A program made the position numbers and the translations under genes. The notes beneath the pieces are model-generated. The model did no database searches, was not told the DNA's origin, and saw nothing but the letters and a program-made list of their open reading frames with translations. 64,000 nucleotides of DNA. Source: Streptomyces sp. NBC_00341 (GTDB taxonomy: Bacteria > Actinomycetota > Actinomycetes > Streptomycetales > Streptomycetaceae). Below are positions 9,132-60,100 of the stretch, in pieces (position 1 is the stretch's first letter; the number at the start of each line of letters is the position of its first letter). The stretch is from contig NZ_CP108002.1 of assembly GCF_041435055.1 (NCBI RefSeq), forward strand, positions 3,224,001-3,288,000. Direction: 5' to 3'.

Positions 9132-9135
9132 GAGG

Positions 9136-9984
9136 TCAGTCCTTAACCGCTCCGCCCAGTCCCGAGACCAGGCGTCGCTGTACGAGTACGAAGAAGACCA
9201 GCACGGGGATGGTCATCACCGTCGAGGCTGCCATGATCCCTCCCCAGTCGTTCTCATCGGGTTTGAAGAAGACCAGCAGCGCCATCGGGAGCGTCGACTG
9301 GGAGGTGTCGCTGATGATGAACGACTTCGCGAAGAGGAAGTCGTTCCAGGTCGAGATGAACGAGAAGACGCTCGTCGCGACCAGTCCCGGGAAGACCAGT
9401 GGGAAGAGGATCTGCCACAGGAAGCGGGCCCGGCTCGCGCCGTCGATGTACGCCGCCTCCTCCAGGGCGTCCGGGACGGCCTTGACGAAGCCGCGCAGCA
9501 TCCAGATCGCGAACGGCAGCGAGAAGGCCAGGTGCGGCAGGATCAGCGAGCCGAGCGTGTTCAGCTGGCCGAAGTCGCGCATCAGGAAGAACAGCGGGAT
9601 CGTCAGCGCCTCGACCGGCACCATCTGCGCGACCAGGAACATGATCAGCAGGGTGGTGCGGAAGCGGAACCGGAACCGGGTGACCGCCGTCGCCGCCAGG
9701 AAGGCGATCAGCGCGGAGACGATGACGACCGTGCCGGCGACGATCAGGCTGTTGAGGAAGTAGCGCCCGAAGTCCTGCTGCTGGAAGACCCGGCGGAAGG
9801 AGTCCAGGGACGGCGACAGCGTCCAGGGCCTCGGGTGCGCGGACTGGACCTCTCCGGCCGGCTTGAAGGCCGAGAGCACCATCCAGTACAGCGGGAAGGC
9901 CACGACGACGGCGATCAGCAGCGCCGCCGCCTCGGCGGCGAGCCGGCCGGGCCGGCGGACGCGCGACAGGGACGGCAGGCTCAC
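9136..9984 (-). CDS. Sugar ABC transporter permease (MalG/DasC-like)
   Basis: 282 aa from GTG (VSLPSLSRVRRPG), preceded by GGGGGAGG; GTGA overlaps the stop of the preceding permease. Six predicted membrane helices, with the cytoplasmic EAA loop EEAAYIDGASRARFLWQILFP (~185-205) that docks the ATPase. CUT1 family. There is no ATP-binding gene in the operon; in Streptomyces such importers share MsiK, so that is the expected partner (known for the group, inferred here). Together with the binding protein and the cytoplasmic hexosaminidase, the likely cargo is N,N'-diacetylchitobiose or a related amino-sugar oligomer. Confidence 0.88.
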   Translation of the reverse strand: MSLPSLSRVRRPGRLAAEAAALLIAVVVAFPLYWMVLSAFKPAGEVQSAHPRPWTLSPSLDSFRRVFQQQDFGRYFLNSLIVAGTVVIVSALIAFLAATAVTRFRFRFRTTLLIMFLVAQMVPVEALTIPLFFLMRDFGQLNTLGSLILPHLAFSLPFAIWMLRGFVKAVPDALEEAAYIDGASRARFLWQILFPLVFPGLVATSVFSFISTWNDFLFAKSFIISDTSQSTLPMALLVFFKPDENDWGGIMAASTVMTIPVLVFFVLVQRRLVSGLGGAVKD

Positions 9985-45257: not shown

Positions 45258-46682
45258 ATGACGACAGCCGCAGCGGGGGGCGCCGACGAGGCGCCCTCCG
45301 CCGACACCGGAGCCCGCGGCGGGACCTCGGTACCCGCCCCCAGAAAGCCCGGGGACGGGCAGCCGCCCGTCCGCCGGGTGCCCAGCCGCAAGAGTGTGAC
45401 CGGTACCCGAAGGGTCATCGCGGCGCTCTTCCTGCTGCCCGCGCTGGTCCTGCTCGGCGCGCTCGTGGTCTATCCGATCGTGTACTCCGTCTACCGGTCC
45501 TTCTTCGACCAGGCGGGTACCGGGTTCGCCGGACTCGACAACTACAAGGCGCTGTTCTCCGACGACACCATCCGTACCGCGATCAAGAACAACGCGATCT
45601 GGGTCGTCCTCGCACCGACCGTCTCCACCGTCCTCGGCCTGATCTTCGCCGTGCTGACCGAACGGATCCGCTGGGGCACGGCGTTCAAGCTGATCGTCTT
45701 CATGCCGATGGCGATCTCGATGCTCGCCGCAGGCATCATCTTCCGGCTGGTGTACGACCAGGCGCCGGAGCGCGGCATCGCCAACGCCGTCGCGGTGGGC
45801 GTGCACGACACGTTCAACGGGTCGACCGGGTTCCCCAAGGCGCACCCACTGCCCGTCCACCCGCTCAAGGCGGCCGGCGGCGGGTCCTTCGTGACCAAGG
45901 CGCCGGTCCGGGCCGGGGAACCGGTCCAGCTGCCCCTGGTCGGGGTGGCGCCCGCGAAGATGCCCGGCGACGCGAAGCCCGCGCGAACCCCCGCGAAGGC
46001 GGACGGCGGGAAGATCACCGGCACCGCCTGGCTGGACTTCACCAAGGGCGGCGGCGGGAAGCCCAACGTCATCGACGCCTCGGAGCTCGGCCTCAAGGGC
46101 ATCGAGGTCGAGGCCGTCAAGGGCGGCGAGGTGGTCGCCTCGGCCACCGCGGGCGCCGACGGCACGTTCACACTGCCCGCGGCGGCGGACGGCGCCGAAC
46201 TCCGGCTCCCCGCCTCCAACTTCAGGGAGCCGTACAACGGCGTCGACTGGCTCGGGCCGAGCCTCGTCACGCCCGGCATCATCGGCAGCTACGTCTGGAT
46301 GTGGGCGGGCTTCGCCATGGTGCTGATCGCGGCCGGACTGGCGGGTCTGCCGCGCGAACTCCTCGAAGCGGCCCGGGTCGACGGGGCGAACGAGTGGCAG
46401 GTGTTCCGCCGGATCACGGTGCCGATGCTCGCCCCGGTCCTCGCGGTGGTCCTGGTGACGCTGATGATCAACGTCCTGAAGGTCTTCGACCTGGTCTTCA
46501 TCATCGCGCCGGGCTCCTCGCAGGACGACGCGAACGTGCTGGCGCTCCAGCTCTACCGGTCCTCGTTCGGCACGGACGCGGACCTGGGGATCGGCAGCGC
46601 CATCGCCGTACTCCTGCTGCTGCTGGTGGTCCCGGTGATGCTCTTCAACATCAGGCGGATACGGAAGGAGGGGCGCCGATGA
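45258..46682 (+). CDS. Sugar ABC permease (MalF-like) with inserted extracytoplasmic beta domain
   Basis: 474 aa against ~300 for normal CUT1 permeases. Helices 1-3 lie at ~52-170. An insertion of about 150 residues (~185-335) follows, Pro/Gly/Lys-rich at first, then a compact segment (GKITGTAWLDFTKGGGGKPNVIDASELGLKGIEVEAVKGG and DGTFTLPAAADGAELRLP). That segment looks like a Cna-B/SdrD-type or carboxypeptidase-regulatory beta sandwich. The remaining helices and the EAA loop LLEAARVDGANEWQVFRRI (~368) are intact. The insert should face outside and could contact the binding protein like the MalF P2 loop. Starts 4 nt after the binding-protein stop. Confidence 0.86.
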   Translation: MTTAAAGGADEAPSADTGARGGTSVPAPRKPGDGQPPVRRVPSRKSVTGTRRVIAALFLLPALVLLGALVVYPIVYSVYRSFFDQAGTGFAGLDNYKALFSDDTIRTAIKNNAIWVVLAPTVSTVLGLIFAVLTERIRWGTAFKLIVFMPMAISMLAAGIIFRLVYDQAPERGIANAVAVGVHDTFNGSTGFPKAHPLPVHPLKAAGGGSFVTKAPVRAGEPVQLPLVGVAPAKMPGDAKPARTPAKADGGKITGTAWLDFTKGGGGKPNVIDASELGLKGIEVEAVKGGEVVASATAGADGTFTLPAAADGAELRLPASNFREPYNGVDWLGPSLVTPGIIGSYVWMWAGFAMVLIAAGLAGLPRELLEAARVDGANEWQVFRRITVPMLAPVLAVVLVTLMINVLKVFDLVFIIAPGSSQDDANVLALQLYRSSFGTDADLGIGSAIAVLLLLLVVPVMLFNIRRIRKEGRR

Positions 46683-47967: not shown

Positions 47968-50139
47968 ATGCCCCGGCTGAGTGTCATCATCCCCGTCCGC
48001 CGCGCCCGAGGAAGTCTGCGCGAGTGCCTGGAGTCGGTGCTCTCGCAGTCCTTCACGGACATCGAGGTGATCGGTGTGGATGACGGCGCTCCGGACGGCT
48101 CGGGGCTCGTGCTGGACGAGTTCGCCGCCCTCGACAGCCGGGTCCAGGCCATCCACCTGCCCGCGGGCGCGGGAGCCCACGGCCGGCGCAACGCCGGTGC
48201 GGAGCGGGCCACCGGGGACTACCTCCTGTTCCTGGAGGGCCACTACATCTACCTGCCGAACGCGCTGCGGGAGATCGTGGACGGGCTGGACGCCACCGGC
48301 GACCCCGATGTGCTGGTCTTCGGCCACCGCAAGCGCCCGTTCCGGGGCAAGACCCGGGCGACCCGGTCCCTCGAGCTGCTGAGCGGCATGCCCGCGGGCC
48401 CGCACACCCTGGCCAAGCGCAAGGACCTCCTGGACATCGCGCCCGTCTCCTGGAACCGGGCGGTCCGCCGCACCGTCGCCGAGCGCGAGAGCCTGGCCTT
48501 CGGCCCCGGCCCGCACGGTGAGCGCATGTACGCGCTCCTGACGCTCGCCGTCGCCGGCTCCGTCGCCACCCTGGGCACCGCCTGCGTCGAGCACCGCCAG
48601 CAGCGCTACCTGCCCGGCCTGGCGGACGACGCCGAGCCCACGGCCGGCACGACGCCGCTGGAGCTGATCGACGCGTACGGGGACCTGATGACCTCCGTCG
48701 AGGCACGCCCGGCCCTCAGCCCGGTACGCGGACTGCTCTTCGACCGCGCCGTCCAGGAGCTGCTGTCCGCGTACCCGACGGTGACCAAGCGCCGCAGGCA
48801 GTACGTCAGCGCCGTCGCCGCGTTCCACAGCGCCCACCGCCCCGACGGCTTCACGTTCCCGGGCGGCGCGAAGGGGCTCAGGCCGCAGCTGATGAGCGGC
48901 GGCAAGTACGCCGCGCTCGGCGCCCTGGACACGGCTCTGGCCACCCGCCGCGGCCTGCGCTCTGCGCCCACCACGGCACGGGCCAAGGCGAAGAAGTCGT
49001 TCACCGCGCGCTACTACAAGGCGCAGCGCAAGCTTCCGCTGGACCCGAAGCTCGCCGTCTACGCGGCCTACTGGAACCGCGGCGTGAGCTGCAACCCCGA
49101 GGCGATCTACCGCAAGGCCCAGGAGCTGGCCCCCGATGTGCACGGGGTCTGGGTGGTGTCGAAGAACCAGGTGGACTCGCTGCCGAAGGGCATCGACTAC
49201 GTGGTGCCCGGCACCCGCCGCTACTGGTCGGTGCTGGCCCGTGCCACGTACTTCTTCAACAACGTCAACTTCGCCGACCACCTGGTCAAGCGCCCGGGTC
49301 AGATCCACGTGATGACCCACCACGGCACCCCGCTGAAGATCATGGGGATGGACCAGCAGAACTATCCGGCGGCCGCTCAGGGGCTCAACTTCGACCGGCT
49401 GCTCAAGCGGGTCGACCGCTGGGACTGGAGCGTCTCCGCCAACCCGCACTCCACCGAGGTGTGGTCCCGCGCCTACCCGAGCGCCGCGCGTTCTCTGGAG
49501 ACGGGCTACCCGCGCAACGACGTCTTCGCGACGGCGACGCAGGAGCAGATCGAGACGATCCGCGAGGGCCTCGGCATCCGCCCCGGCCAGCGCGCCCTGC
49601 TGTACGCGCCCACCCACCGCGACTACGAGTCGGGCTTCACCAGCCGTCTCGACCTGGAGCGGTTCTGCGCGGCCGTGGGCCCGGACACCGTGGTGATGGT
49701 GCGCGCGCACTACTTCTACGGCGGCGCGGGGCTGCCCGAGAGCCCGTCGATCATCGACGTCTCCACGCATCCGCGCATCGAGGACCTCTGCCTCGCGGCC
49801 GACGCCCTGATCACGGACTACTCGTCGGTGATGTTCGACTACGCGCACCTGAACCGCCCGATCGTGGTGCACGCCCCGGACTGGGAGACGTACCGCACGG
49901 TACGCGGTGTCGTCTTCGACCTGCTGTCCGGCAAGCCCGGCGAGACCCCGGGCGCCGTCGCGACGACCACGGACGAGCTGGCGCGGGCGTTCACCGACGG
50001 CAGCTGGGACAGCCCCGCGAACGAGGCGCTACTGAAGGCGTTCCGTGAGCGGTTCTGCCCGTACGACGACGGCCGCGCCGCCGAGCGCGTCGTGCGCCGC
50101 GTCATCCTGGGCGAGGAGCCCGCGCCCAGCACGGCCTGA
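47968..50139 (+). CDS. GT-A glycosyltransferase fused to CDP-glycerol glycerophosphotransferase (TagF-like)
   Basis: 723 aa. Residues ~1-110 are a GT2/GT-A fold (LSVIIPVRRARGSLRECLESVLSQSFTDIEVIGVDDGA; HYIY in place of the DxD, so that half may be degenerate). The C-terminal ~380 residues form the Glyphos_transf domain: THHGTPLKIMGMD, TGYPRNDVF, LLYAPTHRDY, DALITDYSSVMFDYAHLNRPIV. It would polymerise or add glycerol/ribitol phosphate (or another CDP-alditol product) onto a wall teichoic acid chain on the cytoplasmic face. It shares architecture with the larger enzyme at 53777-57313. Monocistronic, closed by a hairpin at 50160-50197. Confidence 0.88.
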   Translation: MPRLSVIIPVRRARGSLRECLESVLSQSFTDIEVIGVDDGAPDGSGLVLDEFAALDSRVQAIHLPAGAGAHGRRNAGAERATGDYLLFLEGHYIYLPNALREIVDGLDATGDPDVLVFGHRKRPFRGKTRATRSLELLSGMPAGPHTLAKRKDLLDIAPVSWNRAVRRTVAERESLAFGPGPHGERMYALLTLAVAGSVATLGTACVEHRQQRYLPGLADDAEPTAGTTPLELIDAYGDLMTSVEARPALSPVRGLLFDRAVQELLSAYPTVTKRRRQYVSAVAAFHSAHRPDGFTFPGGAKGLRPQLMSGGKYAALGALDTALATRRGLRSAPTTARAKAKKSFTARYYKAQRKLPLDPKLAVYAAYWNRGVSCNPEAIYRKAQELAPDVHGVWVVSKNQVDSLPKGIDYVVPGTRRYWSVLARATYFFNNVNFADHLVKRPGQIHVMTHHGTPLKIMGMDQQNYPAAAQGLNFDRLLKRVDRWDWSVSANPHSTEVWSRAYPSAARSLETGYPRNDVFATATQEQIETIREGLGIRPGQRALLYAPTHRDYESGFTSRLDLERFCAAVGPDTVVMVRAHYFYGGAGLPESPSIIDVSTHPRIEDLCLAADALITDYSSVMFDYAHLNRPIVVHAPDWETYRTVRGVVFDLLSGKPGETPGAVATTTDELARAFTDGSWDSPANEALLKAFRERFCPYDDGRAAERVVRRVILGEEPAPSTA

Positions 50140-50159
50140 CCCGCCGCGCACCGGACCGT

Positions 50160-50197
50160 AAGGGCCCGCCACCGGAGCGTTCCGGTGGCGGGCCCTT
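50160..50197. terminator. Bidirectional terminator hairpin
   Basis: 17-bp perfect stem AAGGGCCCGCCACCGGA / TCCGGTGGCGGGCCCTT with a GCGT loop between the convergent TagF-like and small-transporter genes; can serve both strands. Confidence 0.9.
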
Positions 50198-50232
50198 CGC
50201 CGTGCGCGGGCCGGCCTCACGGGTCAGTACAC

Positions 50233-50607
50233 CTAGCGCTGCTGGCCCGCCATCACCGTGGCGAGGCCGACGACCACGAGCGCCGAGCCGCCCCAGGTCC
50301 ACATCGAGGTCCGCTCGTGCAGCACGGTCGCCCCGGCCAGCACGATCAGCAGGTAGCCGAGCGCGTTGAACGGGTACGCGATGGAGAGCGGCACCTTGGC
50401 CAGGGTGGACATCCAGGCGAGGGCGGAGACCGCGAAGACCACCAGGCCGACGACCACCCAGGGGCTGGTGGCGGCCCGCAGGGCGACCGAGCCACCGTGC
50501 TCCCCGGCGGCGGCCGCGGCACCCTTCATCCCGTGCTTGAGCATGATCTGGCCGCCCGCGGACGAGAACACGGCGAACAGCAGCAGCATCAGACTGGGAA
50601 CGGTCAA
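50233..50607 (-). CDS. Four-helix EamA/SMR-type small membrane transporter
   Basis: 124 aa from TTG (LTVPSLMLLLFAVFSSAGGQ) with GGAGCAAGG before it. Four predicted helices (~4-22, 43-62, 68-88, 95-115), as in SMR/ArnE-type half-transporters that pair as dimers. AYPFNALGYLLIVLAGATVLHERTSMWTWGGSALVVVGLA fits the DMT superfamily. It is the last gene of the leftward set GT-C - GT2/methyltransferase - transporter, 70 bp after the previous stop. A role flipping a polyprenyl-phosphate-linked sugar is suggested by context; drug export is an alternative. Confidence 0.78.
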   Translation of the reverse strand: MTVPSLMLLLFAVFSSAGGQIMLKHGMKGAAAAAGEHGGSVALRAATSPWVVVGLVVFAVSALAWMSTLAKVPLSIAYPFNALGYLLIVLAGATVLHERTSMWTWGGSALVVVGLATVMAGQQR

Positions 50608-50677
50608 GACCTTGCTCCTGAGGGCGGCGGCCGGGTTCTCGGACGCGTGGGCTGCGGTGGGTGGGGGGATGGTCGCC

Positions 50678-52192
50678 TCAGACGCCGACCCGGTCGGCGG
50701 GGACGTACTGTCGGTTGAGGATGTCCTGTACATCGACGTGCTCTCCAGCGATGATCGTCTCGGCCGCATGCGGGGTGAGCAGTGCGACGTGCTGATAGCC
50801 GAACAGCGTCGGCCGGATCCGGGTCAGCAGCCTCGAAAGACCGCCGAGTACCGCCGCGAGCGGGCCGCGCCCGAGCAGTGACCAGAACGGCGCCCCCGTC
50901 GAGGCGATGTCCAGGACGTCGTAGCCCGCGGCGCGTACCGTGCGGCGCAGGCTGGCCCTGGTGAAGAAGCGCAGGTGCGTCTCGTCGAGGATGCCCCGGC
51001 GGTCGTAGTCGAAGGCGCCGACCGCGACCCGCATCCGTGAGTACCAGTGGCTGAAGTTCGGCACGGACAGCAGCACCTGGCCGCCGGGCCGGAGCACGGT
51101 GGCGACCTCGGTGAGCACCCGCTCCGGGCGGGAGAGGTGCTCGATGACGTCCCCGGCGACGACGTAGTCGAAGTCGGTGCAGAGCTCGGGCGGCAGGCCC
51201 TCCTCCAGGTTGGCGAGGTGGAAGTACGTGCACTTCTCGCGCACTCCGGGCACCTCGACGAAGTCCACCCCGGTCACCTCGTGGCCGAGTGCCTCCAGCC
51301 GCTGCGCGAACAGGCCGCCGGAGCAGCCGAGGTCCAGGACCCGGCCGGGCGGCAGCTTGCGCATCTTCTCCAGGATGACCGCGTGCGAGGAGCCGTCGCC
51401 CTCCTTGAAGGCGTACTCGACGGGCTTCGGGATCCAGGCGCAGGTGCCGAACCCCTTGACCGCCAGGCGGTATTCGAGGACGTCCTTGACGACGTCCTTG
51501 GCGTACTTCATGCCGTTGACGTAGCAGATCTCGTCGCCGTAGTACGTGGGCACGGGGATCTCCTTGATCCGCATTCCCGCGTCGAGCAGCTGGACGATGA
51601 TCTGGGTGTCGAAGTCGAAGGCGTCGGTGTTCCGGTCGACCGGCAGCTTCTTCAGGGCCTCGACGCTGTAGGCGCGGTATCCGGAGTGGAATTCGGTCAG
51701 TTGCGAACCGAGGAGACCGTTCTCCAGCCGGGTGAGGATGCGGTTGCCGAGCCATTTGTAGAGCGGCATACCGCCCTTGAGGGCGTTCCCGGATTTCATC
51801 ATCCGGGACCCGAACACCGCCTCGCACTCGCCGCGTTCGATGGGTGCGACCATTTCGGGGAGCAGTTCCGGGGCGTACTGTCCGTCGCCGTGCAGGAGCA
51901 CGATGATGTCCAGTCCGTGTGCGGCTGCCAGCGCGTATCCGGCTTTCTGGTTTCCGCCGTATCCGAGGTTCTTGGTGTGCCGCATCACCACGGTGCGCGG
52001 CATTCCCTCGGCCTGCGACCAGCGGCAGCCGGCGGTGAAGGTCGCGTCGTGGCTGGCGTCGTCGAGAATGAGAATCTCGTCGACCCTGGACCGGAAATCC
52101 TCCGGAATCCGGTCGAGGGTCTTCTCCAGCGTTGTCTCCGCGTTGTACGCGACCACCAGGATGCCGATCCTGGGACTCGGGCTTTCCTTCAC
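50678..52192 (-). CDS. GT2 (DPM1-like) glycosyltransferase fused to class I SAM methyltransferase
   Basis: 504 aa. Residues ~8-235 are a GT2 of the dolichyl/polyprenyl-phosphate mannosyltransferase type: ILVVAYNAETTLEKTLDRIP, ILDDASHD, NLGYGGNQKAGYALA, LLHGDGQY (DxD equivalent) and FHSGYRAYSVEAL. It lacks the usual C-terminal membrane helices. Residues ~285-480 are a methyltransferase with motif I VLDLGCSGGLFAQRL, FDYVVAGDVIEHL and LRPGGQVLLSVPN. The two steps could build a methylated sugar donor or link sugar transfer to lipid-phosphate methylation. Follows the GT-C gene by 83 bp. Confidence 0.87.
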   Translation of the reverse strand: MKESPSPRIGILVVAYNAETTLEKTLDRIPEDFRSRVDEILILDDASHDATFTAGCRWSQAEGMPRTVVMRHTKNLGYGGNQKAGYALAAAHGLDIIVLLHGDGQYAPELLPEMVAPIERGECEAVFGSRMMKSGNALKGGMPLYKWLGNRILTRLENGLLGSQLTEFHSGYRAYSVEALKKLPVDRNTDAFDFDTQIIVQLLDAGMRIKEIPVPTYYGDEICYVNGMKYAKDVVKDVLEYRLAVKGFGTCAWIPKPVEYAFKEGDGSSHAVILEKMRKLPPGRVLDLGCSGGLFAQRLEALGHEVTGVDFVEVPGVREKCTYFHLANLEEGLPPELCTDFDYVVAGDVIEHLSRPERVLTEVATVLRPGGQVLLSVPNFSHWYSRMRVAVGAFDYDRRGILDETHLRFFTRASLRRTVRAAGYDVLDIASTGAPFWSLLGRGPLAAVLGGLSRLLTRIRPTLFGYQHVALLTPHAAETIIAGEHVDVQDILNRQYVPADRVGV

Positions 52193-52275
52193 GGGGCGTT
52201 CTCCAGTTGCGCTCGGTGCTCGTTGCTGGGATCGGGAACAGGTCGGTGGGGGGGGTGCGGCCCCGTTGTGCGCGG

Positions 52276-53508
52276 TCAGTTGACGGCGGAGCCGGACCGC
52301 TGCGACGTACGGGGGCCGGCGAGCGGCGGGCAGACGGCAGTTTGACGACAGGCCCTAGTGGCGAGGATGTGGCGGACGCCGGTGGCGAGGCCGACCGCGA
52401 GGACGATCCAGCCGGCGGCGCCCAGCTCCAGCACCGGTTCGCTCCAGCGCACCGCGGAGCGTCCGCTGTAGCCGAGGACGGCCGTCAGCCCGGCCACGGC
52501 GCTGTACGCGAGCCCTTCCCAGAACCCGAGAACGAACGTTCCGGCGGCCGCCCAGGTCAGGTACTGGAGGCCGGATGCGGTGGACAGGAGCAGCAGCAGG
52601 CCCAGCGTGACGGCGACGACCCCGGGCAGTTGCGCGGGCCGCAGCCACGCCAGCCAGACCCCGGCGGCCACGCAGACCAGCACGAAGAGGAAGTGGCCGC
52701 CGCCCTGCATGAAGGTGATGACGGACTCCGGCAGCCCGAGCACGTCGGCGAACCGGACGAGCCCCCAGAGCCGGTAGCTGCCGCCCTCGTACTCCAGGAC
52801 GTTCTCCTTGAGCTGCAGCGGCACGGTCACCAGGACCGGCCCCCAGACCAGCGCGAACAGTGCGCCGAATCCGGCGGCGAAGCGGACCAGCACCGGCCGG
52901 CCGCCGCGCAGCGCGGCGACGAACAGCGCCGGGATCACCACCACCGGAACGAACTTGACGCTGATCGAGAGCGCCGCGGCCACCCCGGCGGCCAGCGGTG
53001 ACTTCCGGTCGGCCAGCAGATGGGCCGCTGCCAGCGCGAACGCGATGGCGACCGCGTCGGTGTTGCCGTGGTAGCCGGAGGTGGCGATCAGTACCGGGCT
53101 GACGGCGACTCCGACACCGCACAGCACCGCCGTCGTCTGAGCGGCCCGGCGCCGGACGATCTCGAACACGAGAATCGCGCAGCAGAAATCAGCGAGGGAA
53201 GCGGGCGAACGGATGAGCGTGGCGAACGACATTCCGAGTTCGGAAAGACCGTTCAGGCCGAGCAGCATCCAGCCGGCCAGGGGCGGGTGGTTGTAGACGG
53301 GCAGTCCGGGCAGCGGGTGCTCATAAATCCGGACGGGGCCGTACGCGGTGACCGCCTTCGCGAATCCCGCGAAGATGCGCACATCGGCGGGGCCCGGCGA
53401 ATTCGCCGCGATGACCATGCGAGTCAGTAGGCCGACGGCCGCGGCAATGAGCACAACGGCTCTTGCGCGTCGCACGTCCCAGGATTCGCATCGCATTCGG
53501 ATACCCAT
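52276..53508 (-). CDS. Integral membrane GT-C glycosyltransferase (GT87/DUF2029-like)
   Basis: 410 aa from ATG (MGIRMRCESWDV), about ten membrane helices. The first outer loop carries PGPADVRIFAGFAKAVTAYGPVRIY with Asp-Arg and PVYNHPPLAGWML, features of polyprenyl-phosphate-sugar-dependent GT-C mannosyl/arabinosyl transferases. A C-terminal tail of ~30 residues is polar. No ribosome site precedes the ATG, and a TTGCAT-n16-TACGTT promoter (53517-53544) would start transcription at or next to it, so a leaderless message is likely. First gene of a presumed three-gene operon. Confidence 0.82.
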   Translation of the reverse strand: MGIRMRCESWDVRRARAVVLIAAAVGLLTRMVIAANSPGPADVRIFAGFAKAVTAYGPVRIYEHPLPGLPVYNHPPLAGWMLLGLNGLSELGMSFATLIRSPASLADFCCAILVFEIVRRRAAQTTAVLCGVGVAVSPVLIATSGYHGNTDAVAIAFALAAAHLLADRKSPLAAGVAAALSISVKFVPVVVIPALFVAALRGGRPVLVRFAAGFGALFALVWGPVLVTVPLQLKENVLEYEGGSYRLWGLVRFADVLGLPESVITFMQGGGHFLFVLVCVAAGVWLAWLRPAQLPGVVAVTLGLLLLLSTASGLQYLTWAAAGTFVLGFWEGLAYSAVAGLTAVLGYSGRSAVRWSEPVLELGAAGWIVLAVGLATGVRHILATRACRQTAVCPPLAGPRTSQRSGSAVN

Positions 53509-53516
53509 GAAAACAG

Positions 53517-53544
53517 AACGTAGCAACCCGGCGACGCTATGCAA
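53517..53544 (-). promoter_or_regulatory. Candidate promoter giving a leaderless GT-C mRNA
   Basis: TTGCAT-n16-TACGTT on the minus strand, with 8 nt between the -10 and the ATG at 53508. Local AT content is high. If correct, the transcript begins at the start codon. Confidence 0.45.
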
Positions 53545-53704
53545 CGCACCGATGAGCACACTTTTACGGCGCACGGCTCGAATACACCGCGCGCCGGAGC
53601 AAACACCGGGAAGGCAAAATCACCCGAACGGTTCACGCGGTCCGCACGGTCCGTACGCCGGTCTCCGTTCACCGTGGCGCCGCCCGGGGGTTCACCACAC
53701 GCCG

Positions 53705-53736
53705 GTGCCCGGCCGGTACGGGTACCGGCCGGGCAC
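53705..53736 (-). terminator. Terminator of the 1178-aa gene
   Basis: 14-bp perfect stem GTGCCCGGCCGGTA / TACCGGCCGGGCAC with a CGGG loop, 40 nt beyond the stop codon. Confidence 0.85.
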
Positions 53737-53776
53737 ATGTGCCCCCGCGGGGGCGGTGTTTCGCGCGGAGCGCGGA

Positions 53777-56700
53777 CTACAGCATCCGGTCGACCACCCG
53801 GGCGGTCGCACGGCCGTCGTCGAGGTCGCAGAAGTCCCGCTTGAATGCCTCGTACGCTTCCGCGTGTCCCGCGATGGCCCGGACCGGGTCGCGCAGGGCC
53901 TCGATCAGCTCCTCGGAGCCCGGGATCAGCGGGCCGGGGGCGCGCTCCTCGAATTCGAAGCTGAATCCGCGCAGCGTGTCGCGGTAGTGCTCCAGGTCGT
54001 AGGTGTGGAACAGCATCGGACGGCCGGTCTGGGCGAAGTCGAACATCAGCGAGGAGTAGTCGGTGACCAGGGCGTCGCTGATCAGCATCAGCTCGCCGAC
54101 GTCCGGGTAGCGCGAGACGTCGCGGACGAATCCGGTGCCGCTGTCCGGCAGCCGGTCGGTGACCATGTAGTGACGCCGCACCAGCAGCACGGTGTCCGCG
54201 CCCAGTTCGCGTTCGGCGGCGGCCAGGTCGAGCTGGAGGCCCAGCGAGTAGCGTCCGCCGCCCAGCTGCTGGTCCTCGCGCCAGGTCGGCGCGTACAGGA
54301 CGACCCGCTTGTCCTTGGGGATCCCGAGCCGCTCCCGTACCGCCGCCGCGACCTTCGTCCGGTCGGCGGCGTGGAAGAGGTCGTTACGGGGATAGCCGCA
54401 CTCCAGGACCTCGCCCTCGAAGCCGAAGGAGCGGCGCAGGACGGGGGTGGAGAAGGTGTTCGGGGAGACCAGGAAGCTCCACTGCCGGGCGCGCTGCTTG
54501 AGCGTGCCGATGTAGGCGGCGTTCGCCTGGACCGTGCCCGCGAGCTCCAGGCCGATCCGCTTGAGCGGGGTGCCGTGCCAGGTCTGGACGACGGTCTGGT
54601 CCTCGCGGCGCTCGAACCACTCGGGCAGCTGCGTGTTGGTGACGACGTACCGGCTGCGGGCCAGCGCCTCGTGCCAGGCGGCCGACCCGTGCTCCACGGC
54701 GACGGCGCCCGCGGGGATGATGGCCTGCTGGTCGCGGACCACCCACAGGTGCTCCAGCTCGGTGCCCCTGGCGACCAGTTCCTCGTAGACCGCCCGCGGC
54801 GAGTCGGAGAACTGGCGGCCGTCGAAGGTGCTGTACAGGGCGGCCTCGCGCAGCGGCGCGGTGCGCTGCGCGGCGTAGGCGTCGCTGAGCAGCTTCTTGG
54901 CGCGCGGGCCGCGCTCCGAGGCGGCGAGCACCGGGGCGGAGACGACCAGGAGCTGGTCGCCGAAGCGCCGCGCGATGGTGTAGTCGCGGCCGGTGAGGGT
55001 GCGGGTGGCGGGCAGGGTGCGGAAGGCCGAGGCGGGGATGCGCAGCGCGATGTCGCCGCTCTCGTCGGCCGCGCCCTTCTCGCGGAAGAAGAAGTACCAG
55101 TTGCCCTCGCCCAGCGGGAGCGGGCCGCCGGGTCCCTCGACGGCGTCGGGGCGCAGTTCGGCACGGAAGCGCCGGGCGTCCTCGTCTCCGGAGAACTCGA
55201 CCGGGAAGGTCGTCTCCTCGCGGTGGGCGCTGTTCTGGACCACCAGCTCGACGGGGTGTGCGCGGTCCTCGGGGAACGTGCCCTCCAGGAGGAGCCGCCC
55301 GTCGTCGGTCCAGCCGGCCAGCTCGACGTGGGGCTGCACGGTGCGGTCGCTGATCAGCAGGTTTCCGCGCGAGCTCGTGACGAGGGCGAGCTCGCGGCGT
55401 GCGCCGTCCTCGCCGTCGTCGAGCGGGTAGCGGCCGGGCAGCACCGGGCCGGGCACGTCGATCGGCGTCCGCCGCGCCTCGGGGCCGACGAGGTGGACGC
55501 TGTAGCCGAGGTTCTTCGGCGTGCTGTCCGCCGCCGGGCGGGCCGCTGTGACGGCCGCGAGCGGGAGTTCGGCGGTGAAGCGGCGCCAGCCGGCGGCCGA
55601 GGACTCGGCGCCCTCGCCCACCGTGACCGGGAAGTCGCAGGTGGCGCCGGTGGCCTTGTGGGTGAGGCCGAGCCGCAGCTCGCCCTTGGCGAGGCGGTCG
55701 CGGACCATGCCGGAGACGAGGACGGTGCCGGCGGTGTCGCCCGCGCGGTGGGTCTCGAAGCGGGCGTCGATGCGCTCCGCGTGCAGGACCAGCTTGTCGC
55801 CGTCGAAGGCCGGGGCGATGCGGTGGTCGCCGTCCGGACGGTAGACGGGCGGTGCCACGGTGGCCTCGCGGACGGAGGGGATGGCGCGGCGCAGCAGGCC
55901 GTTCCTGGCGACGCCGATCTCCAGGTTCCAGGTGAGCTGCTTGGGTTTGCCGTCGGCGGCGATGCGGAGCTTCGCCGGGTCGACGACCGCCTCGAAGCCC
56001 GCGCGGTCGTAGTCGTGCAGGCTCTGCCGGGCGCGGGCGGTGGCCTCCGGCTCGTCGGTCCTGCGCAGCCGCAGCGGCACCACGTTGCGCCGGCCGGCCC
56101 GCAGCCAGCCGATCCGGAACTCGCCGGGGCCCGAACCTGCGGGCAGGTTGCGGATGTAGGCGTACCCCGTGAGGTGCAGTTTGCCGTCGCGCCACTGGGC
56201 GTCCCGCAGCCGGGCGGCGAGCGGGAGGTCGCGGTCGGCCACGCGCAGCACCTGGGCCGGCACCGGCTGCTTCAGTACGGGGTACTCGGCCTGCCGGCGG
56301 CGCACGCCGCGTACGGCGAAGGCACCGGGCTCGCGCTTGTCGTAGGTGAGCAGCGCGAGGAGTTCCTCCATGCGGTGCTCGCGCACCAGGTACCACATCA
56401 CGCGCAGCCGCAGCGGGAGTCCGTCCAGGACCTTCGGGTCGACCTGGTCGATGAAGGCGTTGCAGTGCGTCAGGAAGGCCTCGCGGTAGTCCGCGTCGCC
56501 GTCGGGGAGGACCTCCATGAAGTACCAGAGGTCGTTGGCGAGGGCGTGTGCCTCGTAGTGGTTCTTGTCGGCGGCCGGACGGTTCTCCGCCAGGAAGGTG
56601 GAGACCCCCTGCACGTGCGCGACCCGGTCGCGGACGCCCCGGACGACGGCCCGGCTGGTGGTGATCGAGCCCGGCCGGTCCCGCCAGTGGTAGACGGGGT

Positions 56701-57313
56701 CCTTCACGATGTCGACGGAGCCGGCCAGGAAGTGGGCGGGCAGCACGACGGGGATGTCCTCGTAGAGCGCGCCGACCGGGAAGGCGAACTCGTGCTTGTC
56801 CCAGAAGGAGCGGCGGAAGACCTTGTTGCAGGCGATCCGGTCCCCGAGGAGCTCCAGGTCGCGGGAGACGTGGGTGCGCATCCGGGTCGTCGCCATCGGC
56901 TTGCGGAACATCGGCGACTGCTGGAGCTTGCCGTTGGCGCGCAGCCGCAGCACGTTGCCGGACGCGAGGTCGGAGCCGGTCTCCTCCAGCGCCCCGACGA
57001 GCAGTTCGTACGCGTTCGGCGGGATGATGTCGTCACTGTCGACGAAGGCCAGGTAGCGGCTCTCCGGGTCGCAGTTGCGGACACCGGTGTTACGGGCGTG
57101 CCCCAGCCCGCCGTTCTGCTGGCTCACCAGCCGGAAGCGGTCGTCCCGCGCGGCGAACTCGGCGGCCAGTGCCGCGCTGCCGTCGGTGGACCCGTCGTCG
57201 ACCATCACCACCTCGAGGTCGGCCATGGTCTGCTCCGCGAGGGACTGCAGGCAGTCCGTCAGGAAGAGTTCCACGTTATAGACGGGGACAACGACACTGA
57301 GCCGTGGCGGCAT
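53777..57313 (-). CDS. Giant GT2 / CDP-glycerol glycerophosphotransferase with three internal beta domains
   Basis: 1178 aa from ATG (MPPRLSVVVPVYNVE). N-terminal GT2 (~1-330) with VDDGSTDGSAALAAEF, VDSDDIIPP (DxD) and ALYEDIPVV. A middle region (~360-790) appears to hold three ~110-residue beta-sandwich modules, each opening with a similar strand: LHLTGYAYI, VLVSGMVRD, LLLEGTFPE. The C-terminal Glyphos_transf domain (~820-1170) has QTWHGTPLKRIG, ECGYPRNDLF, VVLYAPTWRED, DALVTDYSSLMFDFAQTGRPML and DLDDGRA. This is a TagF/TarL/TarS-like layout in one chain, probably both glycosylating and polymerising a wall teichoic acid. No membrane helix; expected to be peripheral at the inner face. Confidence 0.88.
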   Translation of the reverse strand: MPPRLSVVVPVYNVELFLTDCLQSLAEQTMADLEVVMVDDGSTDGSAALAAEFAARDDRFRLVSQQNGGLGHARNTGVRNCDPESRYLAFVDSDDIIPPNAYELLVGALEETGSDLASGNVLRLRANGKLQQSPMFRKPMATTRMRTHVSRDLELLGDRIACNKVFRRSFWDKHEFAFPVGALYEDIPVVLPAHFLAGSVDIVKDPVYHWRDRPGSITTSRAVVRGVRDRVAHVQGVSTFLAENRPAADKNHYEAHALANDLWYFMEVLPDGDADYREAFLTHCNAFIDQVDPKVLDGLPLRLRVMWYLVREHRMEELLALLTYDKREPGAFAVRGVRRRQAEYPVLKQPVPAQVLRVADRDLPLAARLRDAQWRDGKLHLTGYAYIRNLPAGSGPGEFRIGWLRAGRRNVVPLRLRRTDEPEATARARQSLHDYDRAGFEAVVDPAKLRIAADGKPKQLTWNLEIGVARNGLLRRAIPSVREATVAPPVYRPDGDHRIAPAFDGDKLVLHAERIDARFETHRAGDTAGTVLVSGMVRDRLAKGELRLGLTHKATGATCDFPVTVGEGAESSAAGWRRFTAELPLAAVTAARPAADSTPKNLGYSVHLVGPEARRTPIDVPGPVLPGRYPLDDGEDGARRELALVTSSRGNLLISDRTVQPHVELAGWTDDGRLLLEGTFPEDRAHPVELVVQNSAHREETTFPVEFSGDEDARRFRAELRPDAVEGPGGPLPLGEGNWYFFFREKGAADESGDIALRIPASAFRTLPATRTLTGRDYTIARRFGDQLLVVSAPVLAASERGPRAKKLLSDAYAAQRTAPLREAALYSTFDGRQFSDSPRAVYEELVARGTELEHLWVVRDQQAIIPAGAVAVEHGSAAWHEALARSRYVVTNTQLPEWFERREDQTVVQTWHGTPLKRIGLELAGTVQANAAYIGTLKQRARQWSFLVSPNTFSTPVLRRSFGFEGEVLECGYPRNDLFHAADRTKVAAAVRERLGIPKDKRVVLYAPTWREDQQLGGGRYSLGLQLDLAAAERELGADTVLLVRRHYMVTDRLPDSGTGFVRDVSRYPDVGELMLISDALVTDYSSLMFDFAQTGRPMLFHTYDLEHYRDTLRGFSFEFEERAPGPLIPGSEELIEALRDPVRAIAGHAEAYEAFKRDFCDLDDGRATARVVDRML

Positions 57314-57633
57314 GTTGAGCACGTCCGTTCATCGGGGGCCTGGCTGTCCGTATGGCTCAACCGTGGATACGGTCGGGGGTCACCGGTTACGGTCCCGAAC
57401 GAGTGACTACGCCTGCCCCGTGCTCGCCCCGTGGGCAAAGCCGCTCGGGGGGTGACGGCCGTGCCTGGGGCTTCGCCCGGACGGTCCTGGAGCACACTCG
57501 GCGCATGCTCCGGAAGGCCCGGTGGGCGGCCCGCCGACCACACTAGCGGATGGCCGGTGACCCCTGAAAAACGCGCTGGGGCGCCCGTACGGACAGCACC
57601 CCGGTATACGGGCGATCGCACCGCGGCCCGCGC
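57314..57633 (-). other. Intergenic region upstream of the 1178-aa gene
   Basis: 320 bp between the TetR stop and the giant transferase start, both leftward. Presumably holds the transferase promoter. I see no strong hairpin, no convincing -35/-10 pair and no coding ORF. Confidence 0.5.
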
Positions 57634-58239
57634 TCAGCGGGTGAGCGCGGCCACCGCCGAGACCGCCAGGTCATCCAGGTATCCCGCGGGCAGCTCGCCC
57701 CTGACCACCGCGAGGCGCCAGTAGAGCGGGCCGACGATCAGGTCGAGGGCGCGGTCGGGGTCGCTGTCCTCCGGCAGTTCCCCGCGCGCCACGGCGTCCC
57801 GTACGACGACGGCGGCGATGCCCTGCTGCGGGTCGAGCAGGGCGGCCTTGATGGTGGCGGAGATCTCCGGGTTGCGGGCCGCCTCGACGAGCAGGTCCGG
57901 GATGACCTGGGAGGCGAGCGGGTGGCGCAGGGCGTAGGCGGCCAGTTCGAGCACGGCGCGCACGTCGCCGTACAGCGAGCCGGTGGCCGGGGCGGGCATG
58001 CCCTGTACCGCGACGGCGGAGACCAGGTCCAGGACCAGGTGCAGCTTGGACTTCCAGCGGCGGTAGACCGCGGTCTTGCCGACGCCCGCGCGCCGGGCGA
58101 TGCCCTCGATGGACATCCGGGCGAAGCCGACCGCGGCCAGCTCCTCGAAGACCGCGCTGCGGATCGCATCGGTCACGTCCTCGCGCAGCACGGCGGCTCC
58201 GGCGGGGGCACGGCGGCGGCTTCCCGGGGCGGTGGTCAT
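57634..58239 (-). CDS. TetR/AcrR family transcription regulator
   Basis: 201 aa from MTTAPGSRRRAPAG; an ATG four codons upstream is equally open. HTH at ~30-70: IRSAVFEELAAVGFARMSIEGIARRAGVGKTAVYRRWKSKLHLV, the TetR recognition pattern. The C-terminal domain (~80-200) resembles TetR_C_11 (ligand pocket). It is divergent from the TagGH-like exporter; the 132 bp between them contain two copies of a 17-bp repeat, the probable operators. Likely controls exporter expression and itself. Confidence 0.85.
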   Translation of the reverse strand: MTTAPGSRRRAPAGAAVLREDVTDAIRSAVFEELAAVGFARMSIEGIARRAGVGKTAVYRRWKSKLHLVLDLVSAVAVQGMPAPATGSLYGDVRAVLELAAYALRHPLASQVIPDLLVEAARNPEISATIKAALLDPQQGIAAVVVRDAVARGELPEDSDPDRALDLIVGPLYWRLAVVRGELPAGYLDDLAVSAVAALTR

Positions 58240-58260
58240 GGCCCGAATCATAGTCCGTTA

Positions 58261-58326
58261 CGACGAAACGGTTGCGTTGCGACGTCGCGGCGTCCTACCC
58301 TCGGCGTTGCGACGATACGGTTGCGT
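58261..58326. promoter_or_regulatory. Duplicated operator-like 17-bp repeat between TetR gene and exporter
   Basis: CGACGAAACGGTTGCGT at 58261-58277 recurs as CGACGATACGGTTGCGT at 58310-58326 (one mismatch, 49 bp apart, direct orientation). The GTTGCG/CGTTGC elements around them are partly palindromic. Placement in the divergent promoter region suggests binding by the TetR protein. Confidence 0.6.
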
Positions 58327-58371
58327 CCCGTCGCTCATGTGTGTTCCTGCCCCTCGACGAAAGCGATCGTG

Positions 58372-59328
58372 GTGAGCCAGACAACAGCCCCGGCGGCCCC
58401 GGCGACCCCGGCTGCCCCGGTGGTCACCCCGCCGGCCGCGTCCCTTCCCGTGTACGCGCCGGGAGAGCTCGCCGCCCTCGCCGCCCGGCACGGGCTGACC
58501 GTGAGCGGCGCCCGGCCGTCCCTCCCCGCGTACGTACGGGAGCTGTGGGGGCGGCGGCACTTCATCACGGCGTTCGCCACCGCCAAGCTGACCGCCCAGT
58601 ACAGCCAGGCGAAGCTCGGCCAGATCTGGCAGATCATGACCCCGCTGCTCAACGCGACGGTCTACTACTTCATCTTCGGCGTCCTGATGAAGACGAAGCA
58701 CGGCGTCCCCGACTACGTGCCCTTCCTGGTCACCGGCGTCTTCATCTGGACCTTCACCAGCAGCTCGATCACCGCGGGCACCCGCGCGATCAGCGGCAAC
58801 ATCGGGCTCGTCCGGGCGCTGCACTTCCCGCGCGCCTCGCTCCCCGTCGCGCTGGCCCTGCAACAGCTCCAGCAGCTGATCTTCTCGCTGGGCGCGCTGG
58901 TGCTGATCCTGCTGGTGTTCGGCCAGTACCCGCAGCCCTCCTGGCTGCTGGCGCTGCCGGCCCTCGCACTCCAGGCCGTCTTCAACACCGGCATCTCGAT
59001 GGTCATGGCCCGGCTCGCCGCGCGCACCCCGGACATCGCCCAGCTGACACCGTTCATCCTGCGCACCTGGATGTACGCGTCCGGCGTCATGTGGAGCATC
59101 GGCACGATGCTCCAGGGCGACCGGGTCCCGCACGCGGTGAAGCTGGCTCTTGAGGTCAATCCGGCCGCCGTCTTCATCGACCTGATGCGGTTCGCGCTCA
59201 TCGACAGCTTCGACGGCGGTCAGCTGCCCCCGCACGTGTGGCTCATCGCCACGGGCTGGGCGCTGGTGTGCGGCGTGGGCGGATTCATCTACTTCTGGCA
59301 GGCAGAGGAGAGTTACGGACGTGGCTGA
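58372..59328 (+). CDS. ABC-2 type polysaccharide/teichoic acid exporter permease (TagG/Wzm-like)
   Basis: 318 aa from GTG (VSQTTAPAAPATP); a GTG one codon earlier is possible. Proline/alanine-rich N-terminus (~1-30), then an ABC2_membrane domain with the amphipathic RELWGRRHFITAFATAKLTAQYSQAKLGQIWQIMTPLLNATVYYFIFG typical of TagG/Wzm and six helices (~85-310). It moves lipid-linked wall polymer to the outside with the ATPase encoded next, whose GTG overlaps its stop by 8 nt. Controlled probably by the divergent TetR gene. Confidence 0.92.
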   Translation: MSQTTAPAAPATPAAPVVTPPAASLPVYAPGELAALAARHGLTVSGARPSLPAYVRELWGRRHFITAFATAKLTAQYSQAKLGQIWQIMTPLLNATVYYFIFGVLMKTKHGVPDYVPFLVTGVFIWTFTSSSITAGTRAISGNIGLVRALHFPRASLPVALALQQLQQLIFSLGALVLILLVFGQYPQPSWLLALPALALQAVFNTGISMVMARLAARTPDIAQLTPFILRTWMYASGVMWSIGTMLQGDRVPHAVKLALEVNPAAVFIDLMRFALIDSFDGGQLPPHVWLIATGWALVCGVGGFIYFWQAEESYGRG

Positions 59329-60100
59329 CAGCACTTCGCCCGGAGTACCGACGGTCGTCGTCGACGACGTCCACATCACGTACAAGGTCAACGGCGCCCG
59401 CACCGGCAAGGGCAGCGCCACCTCGGCCCTCAGCCGGCTCGCCTCGCGCCGGCAGTCCCCCGGAGTGCGCGAGGTGCACGCCGTGAAGGGGGTCAGCTTC
59501 GCCGCGTACAAGGGGGAGGCGATCGGCCTGATCGGCTCCAACGGCTCGGGTAAGTCGACGCTGCTGAAGGCCATCGCCGGACTGCTGCCCGCCACCAGGG
59601 GCCGCGTCCACACCCAGGGCCAGCCCTCGCTGCTCGGGGTGAACGCCGCGCTCATGAGCGATCTGACGGGCGAGCGCAACGTCGTACTCGGCGGACTCGC
59701 GATGGGCATGACCCGCGCCGAGATCCGCGAGCGCTACGCGGAGATCGTGGAGTTCTCCGGCATCAACGAGAAGGGCGACTTCATCACCCTGCCGATGCGC
59801 ACGTACTCCTCCGGCATGGGCGCCCGGCTGCGCTTCTCGATCGCCGCCGCCAAGAACCACGACGTCCTGCTGATCGACGAGGCACTGTCCACCGGCGACG
59901 CGAAGTTCCAGCGCCGCAGCAAGGACCGGATCATCGAGCTGCGCCAGCAGGCCGGCACGGTCTTCCTGGTGAGCCACCACAACAAGTCGATCACCGAGAC
60001 GTGCGACCGGGCGATCTGGCTGGAGGCGGGAACGCTGCGGATGGACGGCCCGGCGAAGGAAGTGGTCGCCGCCTACGAAAAGTTCACCAAGAAAAAGTAA
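59321..60100 (+). CDS. Teichoic acid/polysaccharide export ATPase (TagH/Wzt-like)
   Basis: 259 aa from GTG inside the permease 3' end. Walker A GSNGSGKST (~73-81), signature YSSGMGARLRFSIAAA, Walker B DVLLIDEALSTGD and H-loop VSHH. The insertion TSALSRLASRRQSPGVREVHAVKGV before the P-loop and the SLLGVNAALMSDLTGERNV stretch are typical of TagH/Wzt. It lacks the C-terminal carbohydrate-binding domain seen in some Wzt proteins, ending at EKFTKKK. Powers export of the polymer made by the nearby TagF-like enzymes. Confidence 0.93.
   Translation: MADSTSPGVPTVVVDDVHITYKVNGARTGKGSATSALSRLASRRQSPGVREVHAVKGVSFAAYKGEAIGLIGSNGSGKSTLLKAIAGLLPATRGRVHTQGQPSLLGVNAALMSDLTGERNVVLGGLAMGMTRAEIRERYAEIVEFSGINEKGDFITLPMRTYSSGMGARLRFSIAAAKNHDVLLIDEALSTGDAKFQRRSKDRIIELRQQAGTVFLVSHHNKSITETCDRAIWLEAGTLRMDGPAKEVVAAYEKFTKKK

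Follow-up and report, generated by a model that had tools for sequence, protein, structure and literature searches.

A probable three-component glycosylation cassette among wall-polymer genes of Streptomyces, and its association with rhamnose genes

Introduction

Which sugar, and which acceptor, are served by three genes that lie between two teichoic acid polymerase-like genes in Streptomyces sp. NBC_00341? The question is raised by a stretch of 64,000 nt from its 9.06 Mb genome (G000:C1:3224001-3288000; hereafter the window). The genes in question (50233-53574, minus strand; hereafter the cassette) encode a small membrane protein of the SMR type, a GT2 glycosyltransferase fused to a methyltransferase, and a GT-C membrane glycosyltransferase. 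The concepts of three-component glycosylation and of SMR-type flippases are established (PMC7389260, PMC11127046; these and all other papers are cited from excerpts of their text). In Streptomyces, wall glycans are variable among species and are receptors for antibacterial umbrella toxins, and two of the toxins' target species are without known TUA genes, for which recognition of other surface sugars has been put forward as a possibility (PMC13274773). Here we describe the gene content, gene order, predicted folds and distribution of the cassette, together with an association with the rhamnose genes rmlABCD. The Streptomyces genes very probably constitute a self-contained, accessory three-component glycosylation cassette.

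Results

Three genes with the parts of a lipid-linked glycosylation system

The cassette comprises the following features (window coordinates):

50233..50769, minus strand: SMR/EamA-type protein, candidate polyprenyl-phosphate sugar flippase (NCBIfam ArnE E=2.5e-10, ArnF E=1.4e-8)
50678..52192, minus strand: GT2-methyltransferase fusion, 504 aa (PF00535 E=1.5e-19, PF13489 E=5.5e-21)
52276..53574, minus strand: GT-C membrane glycosyltransferase, 432 aa (Pfam PMT_2 E=4.9e-10)

These belong to a region (47968-60100) with the order TagF1 (plus strand), SMR, fusion, GT-C, TagF2 and TetR (all minus), and TagG/TagH (plus), and all of the features that the first-pass annotation of this DNA had placed there were recovered as gene calls and Pfam or NCBIfam matches. 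TagF2, GT-C, fusion and SMR are co-directional, separated by 202 and then 83 bp, and the final two frames overlap, an arrangement that makes a single transcript plausible. The likelier start of the SMR gene is an ATG at 50733, preceded by a GGAG-type ribosome site, with which the overlap remains.

In the fusion protein, a GT2 domain (residues ~1-245) is followed by a class I S-adenosylmethionine (SAM) methyltransferase domain (~265-475). Its AlphaFold2 model, built from an alignment of 36 of the 38 rows sought (L080 was left out for an in-frame stop and L063 by choice; L-numbers denote loci and G-numbers genomes), had a mean pLDDT of 83.1 and a pTM of 0.67. Foldseek against PDB ranked a Bacillus methyltransferase (3cc8) first, followed by ArnC, the best-ranked GT2 structure, and dolichyl-phosphate mannose synthase (DPMS), both with UDP or GDP ligands, and below these by glucosyl-3-phosphoglycerate synthase and then GtrB. 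DPMS was additionally matched in a profile search (E=7.8e-13). Judged from its domain content and modelled fold, the GT2 part is a candidate polyprenyl-phosphate sugar synthase. The metal (DXD) site reads HGDGQ in the window protein, and H101, D103, G104 and Q105 were invariant in the 36 sequences; since DPMS has an ordinary DXD motif, H101 is a difference from that enzyme.

The joining of a synthase to a methyltransferase had at first been taken as unfamiliar, an impression that did not survive database comparison. With GT2 and class I methyltransferase domains on a single chain, the protein falls within the large family that NCBI names 'bifunctional glycosyltransferase/class I SAM-dependent methyltransferase', which at least 7,997 of 7,998 scored candidates match. 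Our literature searches, judged from titles and the beginnings of abstracts, found no paper giving this family a function.

For the SMR protein, ArnE and ArnF were the sole NCBIfam matches, both under the curated cut-offs. A Pfam scan returned EamA, SMR, TMEM234 and YWFCY and no match to GtrA, the flippase family of CsbB/GtrA(GtcA)/YfhO systems. Fifteen relatives were aligned, and the SMR profile matched EmrE at E=0.62 only. Just one such gene is present at the window locus, not the ArnE plus ArnF pair of the Arn system. The protein is a candidate small multi-helix flippase.

The GT-C model (pLDDT 88.8, pTM 0.86) was closest in Foldseek to ALG6 with dolichyl-phosphate glucose, followed by ALG3 with dolichyl-phosphate mannose (Dol-P-Man), PglB, and GPI-MT-I with Dol-P-Man, and its profile matched GPI mannosyltransferase 1 (E=3.4e-8). 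D64 and the run N95-H96-P97-P98 were invariant across 18 sequences. At one Streptomyces locus, L028, the fusion gene has a GT-C gene of the cassette family on each side (4495-5748 and 7548-9137). The three-component logic suggested in the first pass was supported by a GT2 fold near ArnC and DPMS, a GT-C fold near ALG6 and ALG3, and a flippase candidate matching ArnE/ArnF below cut-off.

Conservation and distribution of the cassette

Relatives of the fusion were gathered by a scan of GTDB genomes, in which the best 80 of 188 matches represented 79 distinct loci, 45 from Streptomyces and 34 from others, including Acidimicrobiia, Acidobacteriota, a planctomycete and Chloroflexi. The Streptomyces loci include those of S. 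atratus JCM 3386 (L018) and S. noursei (L035). Neighbouring GT-C and SMR genes were searched with profiles built from the window proteins, and all neighbour counts refer to the stretch examined at each locus. A GT-C gene adjoined the fusion at 44/45 Streptomyces loci (the exception being L062), and SMR was present at 42/45, the misses at L027 and L039 being contig ends and that at L042 a real absence. Conservation to this extent means that the gene order is not chance, and the three genes are inherited jointly in Streptomyces, compared to GT-C at 6 and SMR at 4 of the 34 other loci. All three occurred together outside Streptomyces in Pseudonocardia (L046) and Nakamurella (L047). A multi-helix open reading frame (ORF) of at least 330 aa lay within 3.5 kb of the fusion at 29/34 non-Streptomyces loci, the nearest being on the same strand at 20; of six large membrane proteins scanned from such neighbourhoods, three had a Pfam match (one to PMT_2, one below cut-off), and with so few matches a GT-C partner is not established for most of these loci.

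Among the 71 Streptomyces genomes of a distribution sample, four encoded the fusion (E<=1e-40) and 67 were cassette-negative, while TagR was found in 56 (E<=1e-60). All four positive genomes had one copy 5-8 kb from TagR. A second copy in G030 (L132, G030:C33:780117-799900) resides in another cluster, which has an integrase-like ORF and no TagF. Judged from their sequence starts, the ORFs of this cluster would be asparagine-synthase-like, Wzx-like, a glycosyltransferase, a methyltransferase and integrase-like. The cluster also has a lower GC content at third codon positions.

The surrounding wall-polymer locus

The cassette of the window is flanked by the following features:

47968..50139, plus strand: TagF1, fusion of GT2 and CDP-glycerol/ribitol glycerophosphotransferase-like domains, 723 aa (PF00535 E=3.2e-26, PF04464 E=4.6e-125)
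53777..57322, minus strand: TagF2, fusion of GT2 and Glyphos_transf domains, 1181 aa (PF04464 E=3.1e-104, PF00535 E=7.5e-34)
57634..58251, minus strand: TetR regulator, TagR-like, 205 aa, divergent from tagG (PF16859/PF00440)
58261..58320, plus strand: two CGACGAnACGG boxes (sites 58261 and 58310), 49 bp apart, in the tagR/tagG promoter (motif match)
~58372..59328, start codon uncertain, plus strand: TagG-type ABC-2 permease (PF01061 E=6e-14 on 58387-59325)
59321..60100, plus strand: TagH-type ATPase (NCBIfam TagH E=1.3e-54, below cut-off)

The Glyphos_transf domains of TagF1 and TagF2 scored 417.8 and 349.3 bits against a curated cut-off of 22.1, in keeping with TagF/TarF-type polymerases, and both proteins were below the NCBI TarF equivalog cut-off. 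TagF2, 202 bp upstream of GT-C on the same strand, additionally had a TarS_linker match below cut-off (E=2.4e-5). Five Glyphos_transf matches were present in the NBC_00341 genome. In G096, the genome of L034, there were eight, six of them within ~43 kb of a single contig.

In S. roseosporus, TagR represses tagGH (PMC10269677), and the TetR-TagGH group of the window looks like that system in its gene layout. The CGACGAnACGG boxes are candidate TagR operators. Within the window they occurred only at the two promoter sites and not before TagF1, TagF2 or the cassette; among the 67 loci that have both TagR and TagG, 50 had two boxes spaced by 47-50 bp, 16 a single box and 1 none. Adjoining the locus, a sugar-importer permease (45258-46682) has, in translation, a long insertion between membrane helices.

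A TagF-type (Glyphos_transf) gene was in the stretch examined at 43/45 Streptomyces fusion loci, the exceptions being L036 and L039 (a 5.9 kb contig), and at none of the 34 non-Streptomyces loci. It was likewise present at 30/36 cassette-free TagR loci. Complete cassettes occurred at L036, where TagF and TagGH were absent from the locus, and in Pseudonocardia G112 and Nakamurella G113, which gave no Glyphos_transf match at E<=0.001 in a search that missed a divergent member in G098. The cassette, found both with and without TagF, is accordingly a module of its own, which in Streptomyces mostly sits at a wall-polymer locus. A fixed unit of TagF plus cassette was rejected, given the fusion in 4/71 genomes versus TagR in 56/71, the TagF genes of cassette-free loci, and the TagF-free cassettes. 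The co-conservation with TagF/TagGH that the first-pass annotation had proposed to look for therefore stands for Streptomyces loci and falls as a fixed association, the separation that it had named as telling against a shared polymer being seen in part, at L036, in the second copy of G030, and in Pseudonocardia and Nakamurella. We had also considered G098 (the genome of L036) to be without TagF, and withdrew this upon finding that a divergent Glyphos_transf protein (22.6 bits against a cut-off of 22.1) is encoded next to the rml genes of that genome.

The position of the Streptomyces cassette inside a TagR-TagGH-TagF locus makes a teichoic acid-type polymer the likely acceptor, and we consider a wall polymer to be probable in this role. 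One polymer might then be synthesised, exported and decorated by the products of a single locus. Alternatively, the cassette could glycosylate secreted proteins or another envelope glycan and lie among TagF genes because the locus is one of variable glycans. The PMT_2 match of the GT-C, the presence of PglB among its fold matches, the complete cassettes of G112 and G113, and TagF-free L132 would all suit such a role. However, TagF-type genes accompany the cassette at nearly all Streptomyces loci, the top two folds, ALG6 and ALG3, act on glycolipids, and the rml operon that co-varies with the cassette (see below) is likewise in wall-polymer loci, so that we regard a protein or other-glycan acceptor as improbable.

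Association of the cassette with rml genes

The genes rmlA, rmlB and rmlD were found beside GT-C at 12/45 Streptomyces loci, 10 of which also had rmlC, and L028 had rmlA only. At the 36 cassette-free TagR loci there was no rmlA, rmlC or rmlD; RmlB matches of 26-32% at these loci were taken for other sugar epimerases and left out of the rml count. In NBC_00341, the sole RmlC and the sole RmlD over cut-off are encoded at G000:C1:2.73 Mb, in an operon with rmlB and rmlA (L160) that is located between proB and a TagF-obg-rpmA-rplU group (L27, L21). This proB-rml region constitutes another wall-polymer locus, of the same kind as the TUA-WTA locus reported for S. griseus (PMC13274773).

In 40 cassette-positive Streptomyces genomes (a set that leaves out the genomes of L006, L008, L027, L039 and L042), a local rml operon was present in 10. 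Of the other 30, 28 had rmlABCD by proB; in G106 a contig end carries proB together with rmlC; and the last genome, G109, to which L062 belongs and which is also without GT-C, had no such rml set. In the 67 cassette-negative genomes, the distance between an RmlC match and proB was at most 5 kb in 5 and at most 20 kb in 7, both counts coming from coordinates of all RmlC matches compared by eye; G001 and G050, in which a contig ends at proB, were taken as negative, and further positives may be hidden where other contigs end. Strong RmlC matches were present in 44 of these genomes, and among 40 best-match regions examined, 6 had rmlA or rmlB plus a wall-locus anchor and 1 had rmlC and proB. The difference in proB-linked rml, 29/30 versus 7/67, gave p=5e-17 by Fisher's test with ancestry ignored. 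RmlC presence alone (at least 147 bits; 40/40 positive versus 44/67 negative genomes) is weak evidence, since the threshold was set after the scores were known.

A locus tree was reconstructed from TagR, TagG and TagH for the 65 of 82 loci having enough of all three, the marker thus being the locus itself. On it, the cassette-positive loci fell into several blocks separated by cassette-free ones. Models of dependent and of independent change, with bounded rates, were compared in a Pagel-type test on 63 loci (L135, a duplicate of L009, and L006, for which rml status was missing, were left out), and dependence was favoured (likelihood ratio 18.0, 4 degrees of freedom, p=0.0012); both cassette and rml were present at 26 loci, neither at 33, rml only at 3 and the cassette only at 1. 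The several blocks, the patchy distribution (4/71) and the many cassette-free TagR loci that also have TagF-type genes would fit the view that the three genes are passengers, inserted at a recombination-prone site and unconnected in function with their neighbours and with rml. The conserved order, the overlapping frames and the dependence on rml are at odds with this explanation, which we consider very improbable.

Outside Streptomyces, Pseudonocardia L046 had RmlB over cut-off, RmlC and RmlD below cut-off and a piece of RmlA, 7-10 kb from the cassette, and in an actinomycete metagenome-assembled genome (L074) the fusion was flanked by RmlC (below cut-off) and RmlD (over cut-off). A third sugar gene of L074 was considered as RmlB and rejected, being closer to LegB/GalE models. 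Judged by sequence, rml genes are in the same genome as the cassette and linked to it, apart from L062/G109, and this link is new as far as the literature searched goes.

Two further types of gene were noted beside rml. In many cassette-positive genomes, a divergent member of the Glyphos_transf family, predicted to have membrane segments, is encoded next to rmlA at the proB wall locus, for example at L160:11821-13956 (25.9 bits) and L187:14505-16787 (22.6), close to the cut-off of 22.1. A methyltransferase-like ORF of ~264 aa (Methyltransf_24, at cut-off in L187) was present beside rmlD at L174, L184 and L187, and an ORF with a similar sequence start was found once beside the cassette (L028:9126-9935).

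We lean towards rhamnose as the sugar in Streptomyces, with dTDP-L-rhamnose most likely the donor, as the most economical choice. A rival explanation retains the same three-component machine and gives it another sugar, such as methylated glucose, galactose or mannose, rml merely marking a group of strains with a given wall type. It would accommodate the wall teichoic acid of S. antibioticus, which has beta-glucose, a small part of it 3-O-methylated (PMC13274773), the occurrence of the fusion family in Acidobacteriota, a planctomycete and Chloroflexi, where the stretch examined showed no rml, and the UDP or GDP ligands of the nearest GT2 structures. The contrast between cassette loci and cassette-free TagR loci in adjacent rml genes (12/45 versus 0/36), the dependence on the tree, and the rml neighbours in Pseudonocardia and L074 speak for rhamnose instead, and we view a different sugar as rather unlikely.

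Discussion

In the mechanism that we propose, the GT2 domain would charge polyprenyl phosphate, at the inner membrane face, with a sugar that is most likely L-rhamnose donated by dTDP-L-rhamnose, and the fused methyltransferase would O-methylate this sugar either once it is on the lipid or immediately beforehand. The lipid-linked methyl sugar may then be flipped by the SMR protein, which is like ArnE/ArnF, and moved by the GT-C, outside the membrane, to a wall glycopolymer. Sugar identity, methylation, flipping and acceptor are all predicted steps, and we put the combination of cassette, rhamnose and wall acceptor, that is, a lipid-linked O-methyl-rhamnose placed on a wall polymer, at even chances. 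Chemotaxonomic support from 3-O-methyl-rhamnose in Catellatospora/Asanoa and rhamnose in whole cells of Streptacidiphilus was considered and set aside, since our literature searches gave no open paper confirming either.

Several observations weigh against parts of this proposal. The fold matches of the fusion are unspecific, with glucosyl-3-phosphoglycerate synthase coming right after ArnC and DPMS. In the case of the GT-C, the oligosaccharyltransferase PglB is among the top folds, ArnT and PimE matched only at E=0.014 and E=0.017, and PMT_2-type GT-C enzymes act on proteins too. An alignment search for SMR in 11 non-Streptomyces fusion genomes found none in 9 at E<=1e-10, the cassette type being restricted to Pseudonocardia and Nakamurella, so that the flippase in the other nine, if any, would be another protein. 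Wall-locus rml genes occurred without the cassette at L120, L128 and L124 (the set at L124 being divergent), and L062 has the fusion and SMR without GT-C or wall-locus rml. Moreover, rml was in the examined stretch of just 2/34 non-Streptomyces loci, and other family members may therefore use other sugars. Two of six proteins scanned near the rml operon were GT2s with a TarS linker, and the operon may thus serve other enzymes. Finally, the Streptomyces wall polymers described in the source excerpts have 3-O-methyl-glucose (PMC13274773) or a methyl on teichulosonic acid (PMC11481543), not methyl-rhamnose.

Comparison to known systems places the cassette near several of them. It shares with the Arn system of lipid A modification (ArnC-ArnE/ArnF-ArnT) the fold of an undecaprenyl-phosphate-sugar synthase, an SMR protein matching ArnE/ArnF, and a GT-C, and differs in its one SMR gene in place of the ArnE/ArnF pair, its synthase-methyltransferase fusion and its Gram-positive host. 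The Arn sugar is 4-amino-4-deoxy-L-arabinose. For RptA, an actinobacterial transferase of Corynebacterium glutamicum, the donor is a polyprenyl-phosphate-rhamnose.

CsbB/GtcA/YfhO glycosylation of teichoic acids in B. subtilis, S. aureus and Listeria is alike in its cytosolic polyprenyl-phosphate-sugar synthase, small flippase, external GT-C and teichoic acid setting (PMC7389260), whereas the cassette has a flippase without a GtrA match in Pfam, a methyltransferase fusion, and a putative acceptor. In the actinomycete Actinoplanes missouriensis, the gsf cluster for extracellular glycosylation likewise pairs a small flippase with several glycosyltransferases and includes a SAM methyltransferase-domain protein, but its flippase is of the GtrA type, three of its glycosyltransferases are cytoplasmic, and the excerpt mentions no GT2-methyltransferase fusion (PMC13390465). 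Pentofuranose three-component systems have, in a glycan locus, a GT-C and a four-helix transporter, ORF14, whose similarity to ArnE is 48% across 46% of its length, and differ in a donor made from phosphoribosyl pyrophosphate, with no synthase-fused methyltransferase mentioned in the part of the paper cited (PMC11127046). RptA puts rhamnose on a wall polymer, although its acceptor is arabinogalactan and the likeness is by description only (PMC3123699). The Streptomyces TUA-WTA 'utr' locus resembles the setting in NBC_00341 in that species-variable wall glycans are encoded near TagF and ribosomal L21/L27, as the rml genes of NBC_00341 are beside TagF, obg, L27 and L21; the enzymes predicted to add sugars there are TarS/TarM-like, and the three-gene cassette goes unmentioned in the excerpt (PMC13274773).

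Our fullest, and still tentative, proposal is that the synthase-methyltransferase makes a lipid-linked donor of a class not assigned before, polyprenyl-phosphate O-methyl-L-rhamnose, that a single ArnE/ArnF-like protein flips it and the GT-C uses it to cap or decorate wall teichoic acids, that the cassette moves between wall loci with, or supplied by, rml, and that relatives in other phyla follow the same design with other methylated sugars. A movable cassette placing methylated rhamnose on the outside would be a concrete candidate for the kind of wall-glycan variation that umbrella toxins may recognise and, if the proposal is true, a large family of fusion proteins would gain a function along with one testable chemical prediction.

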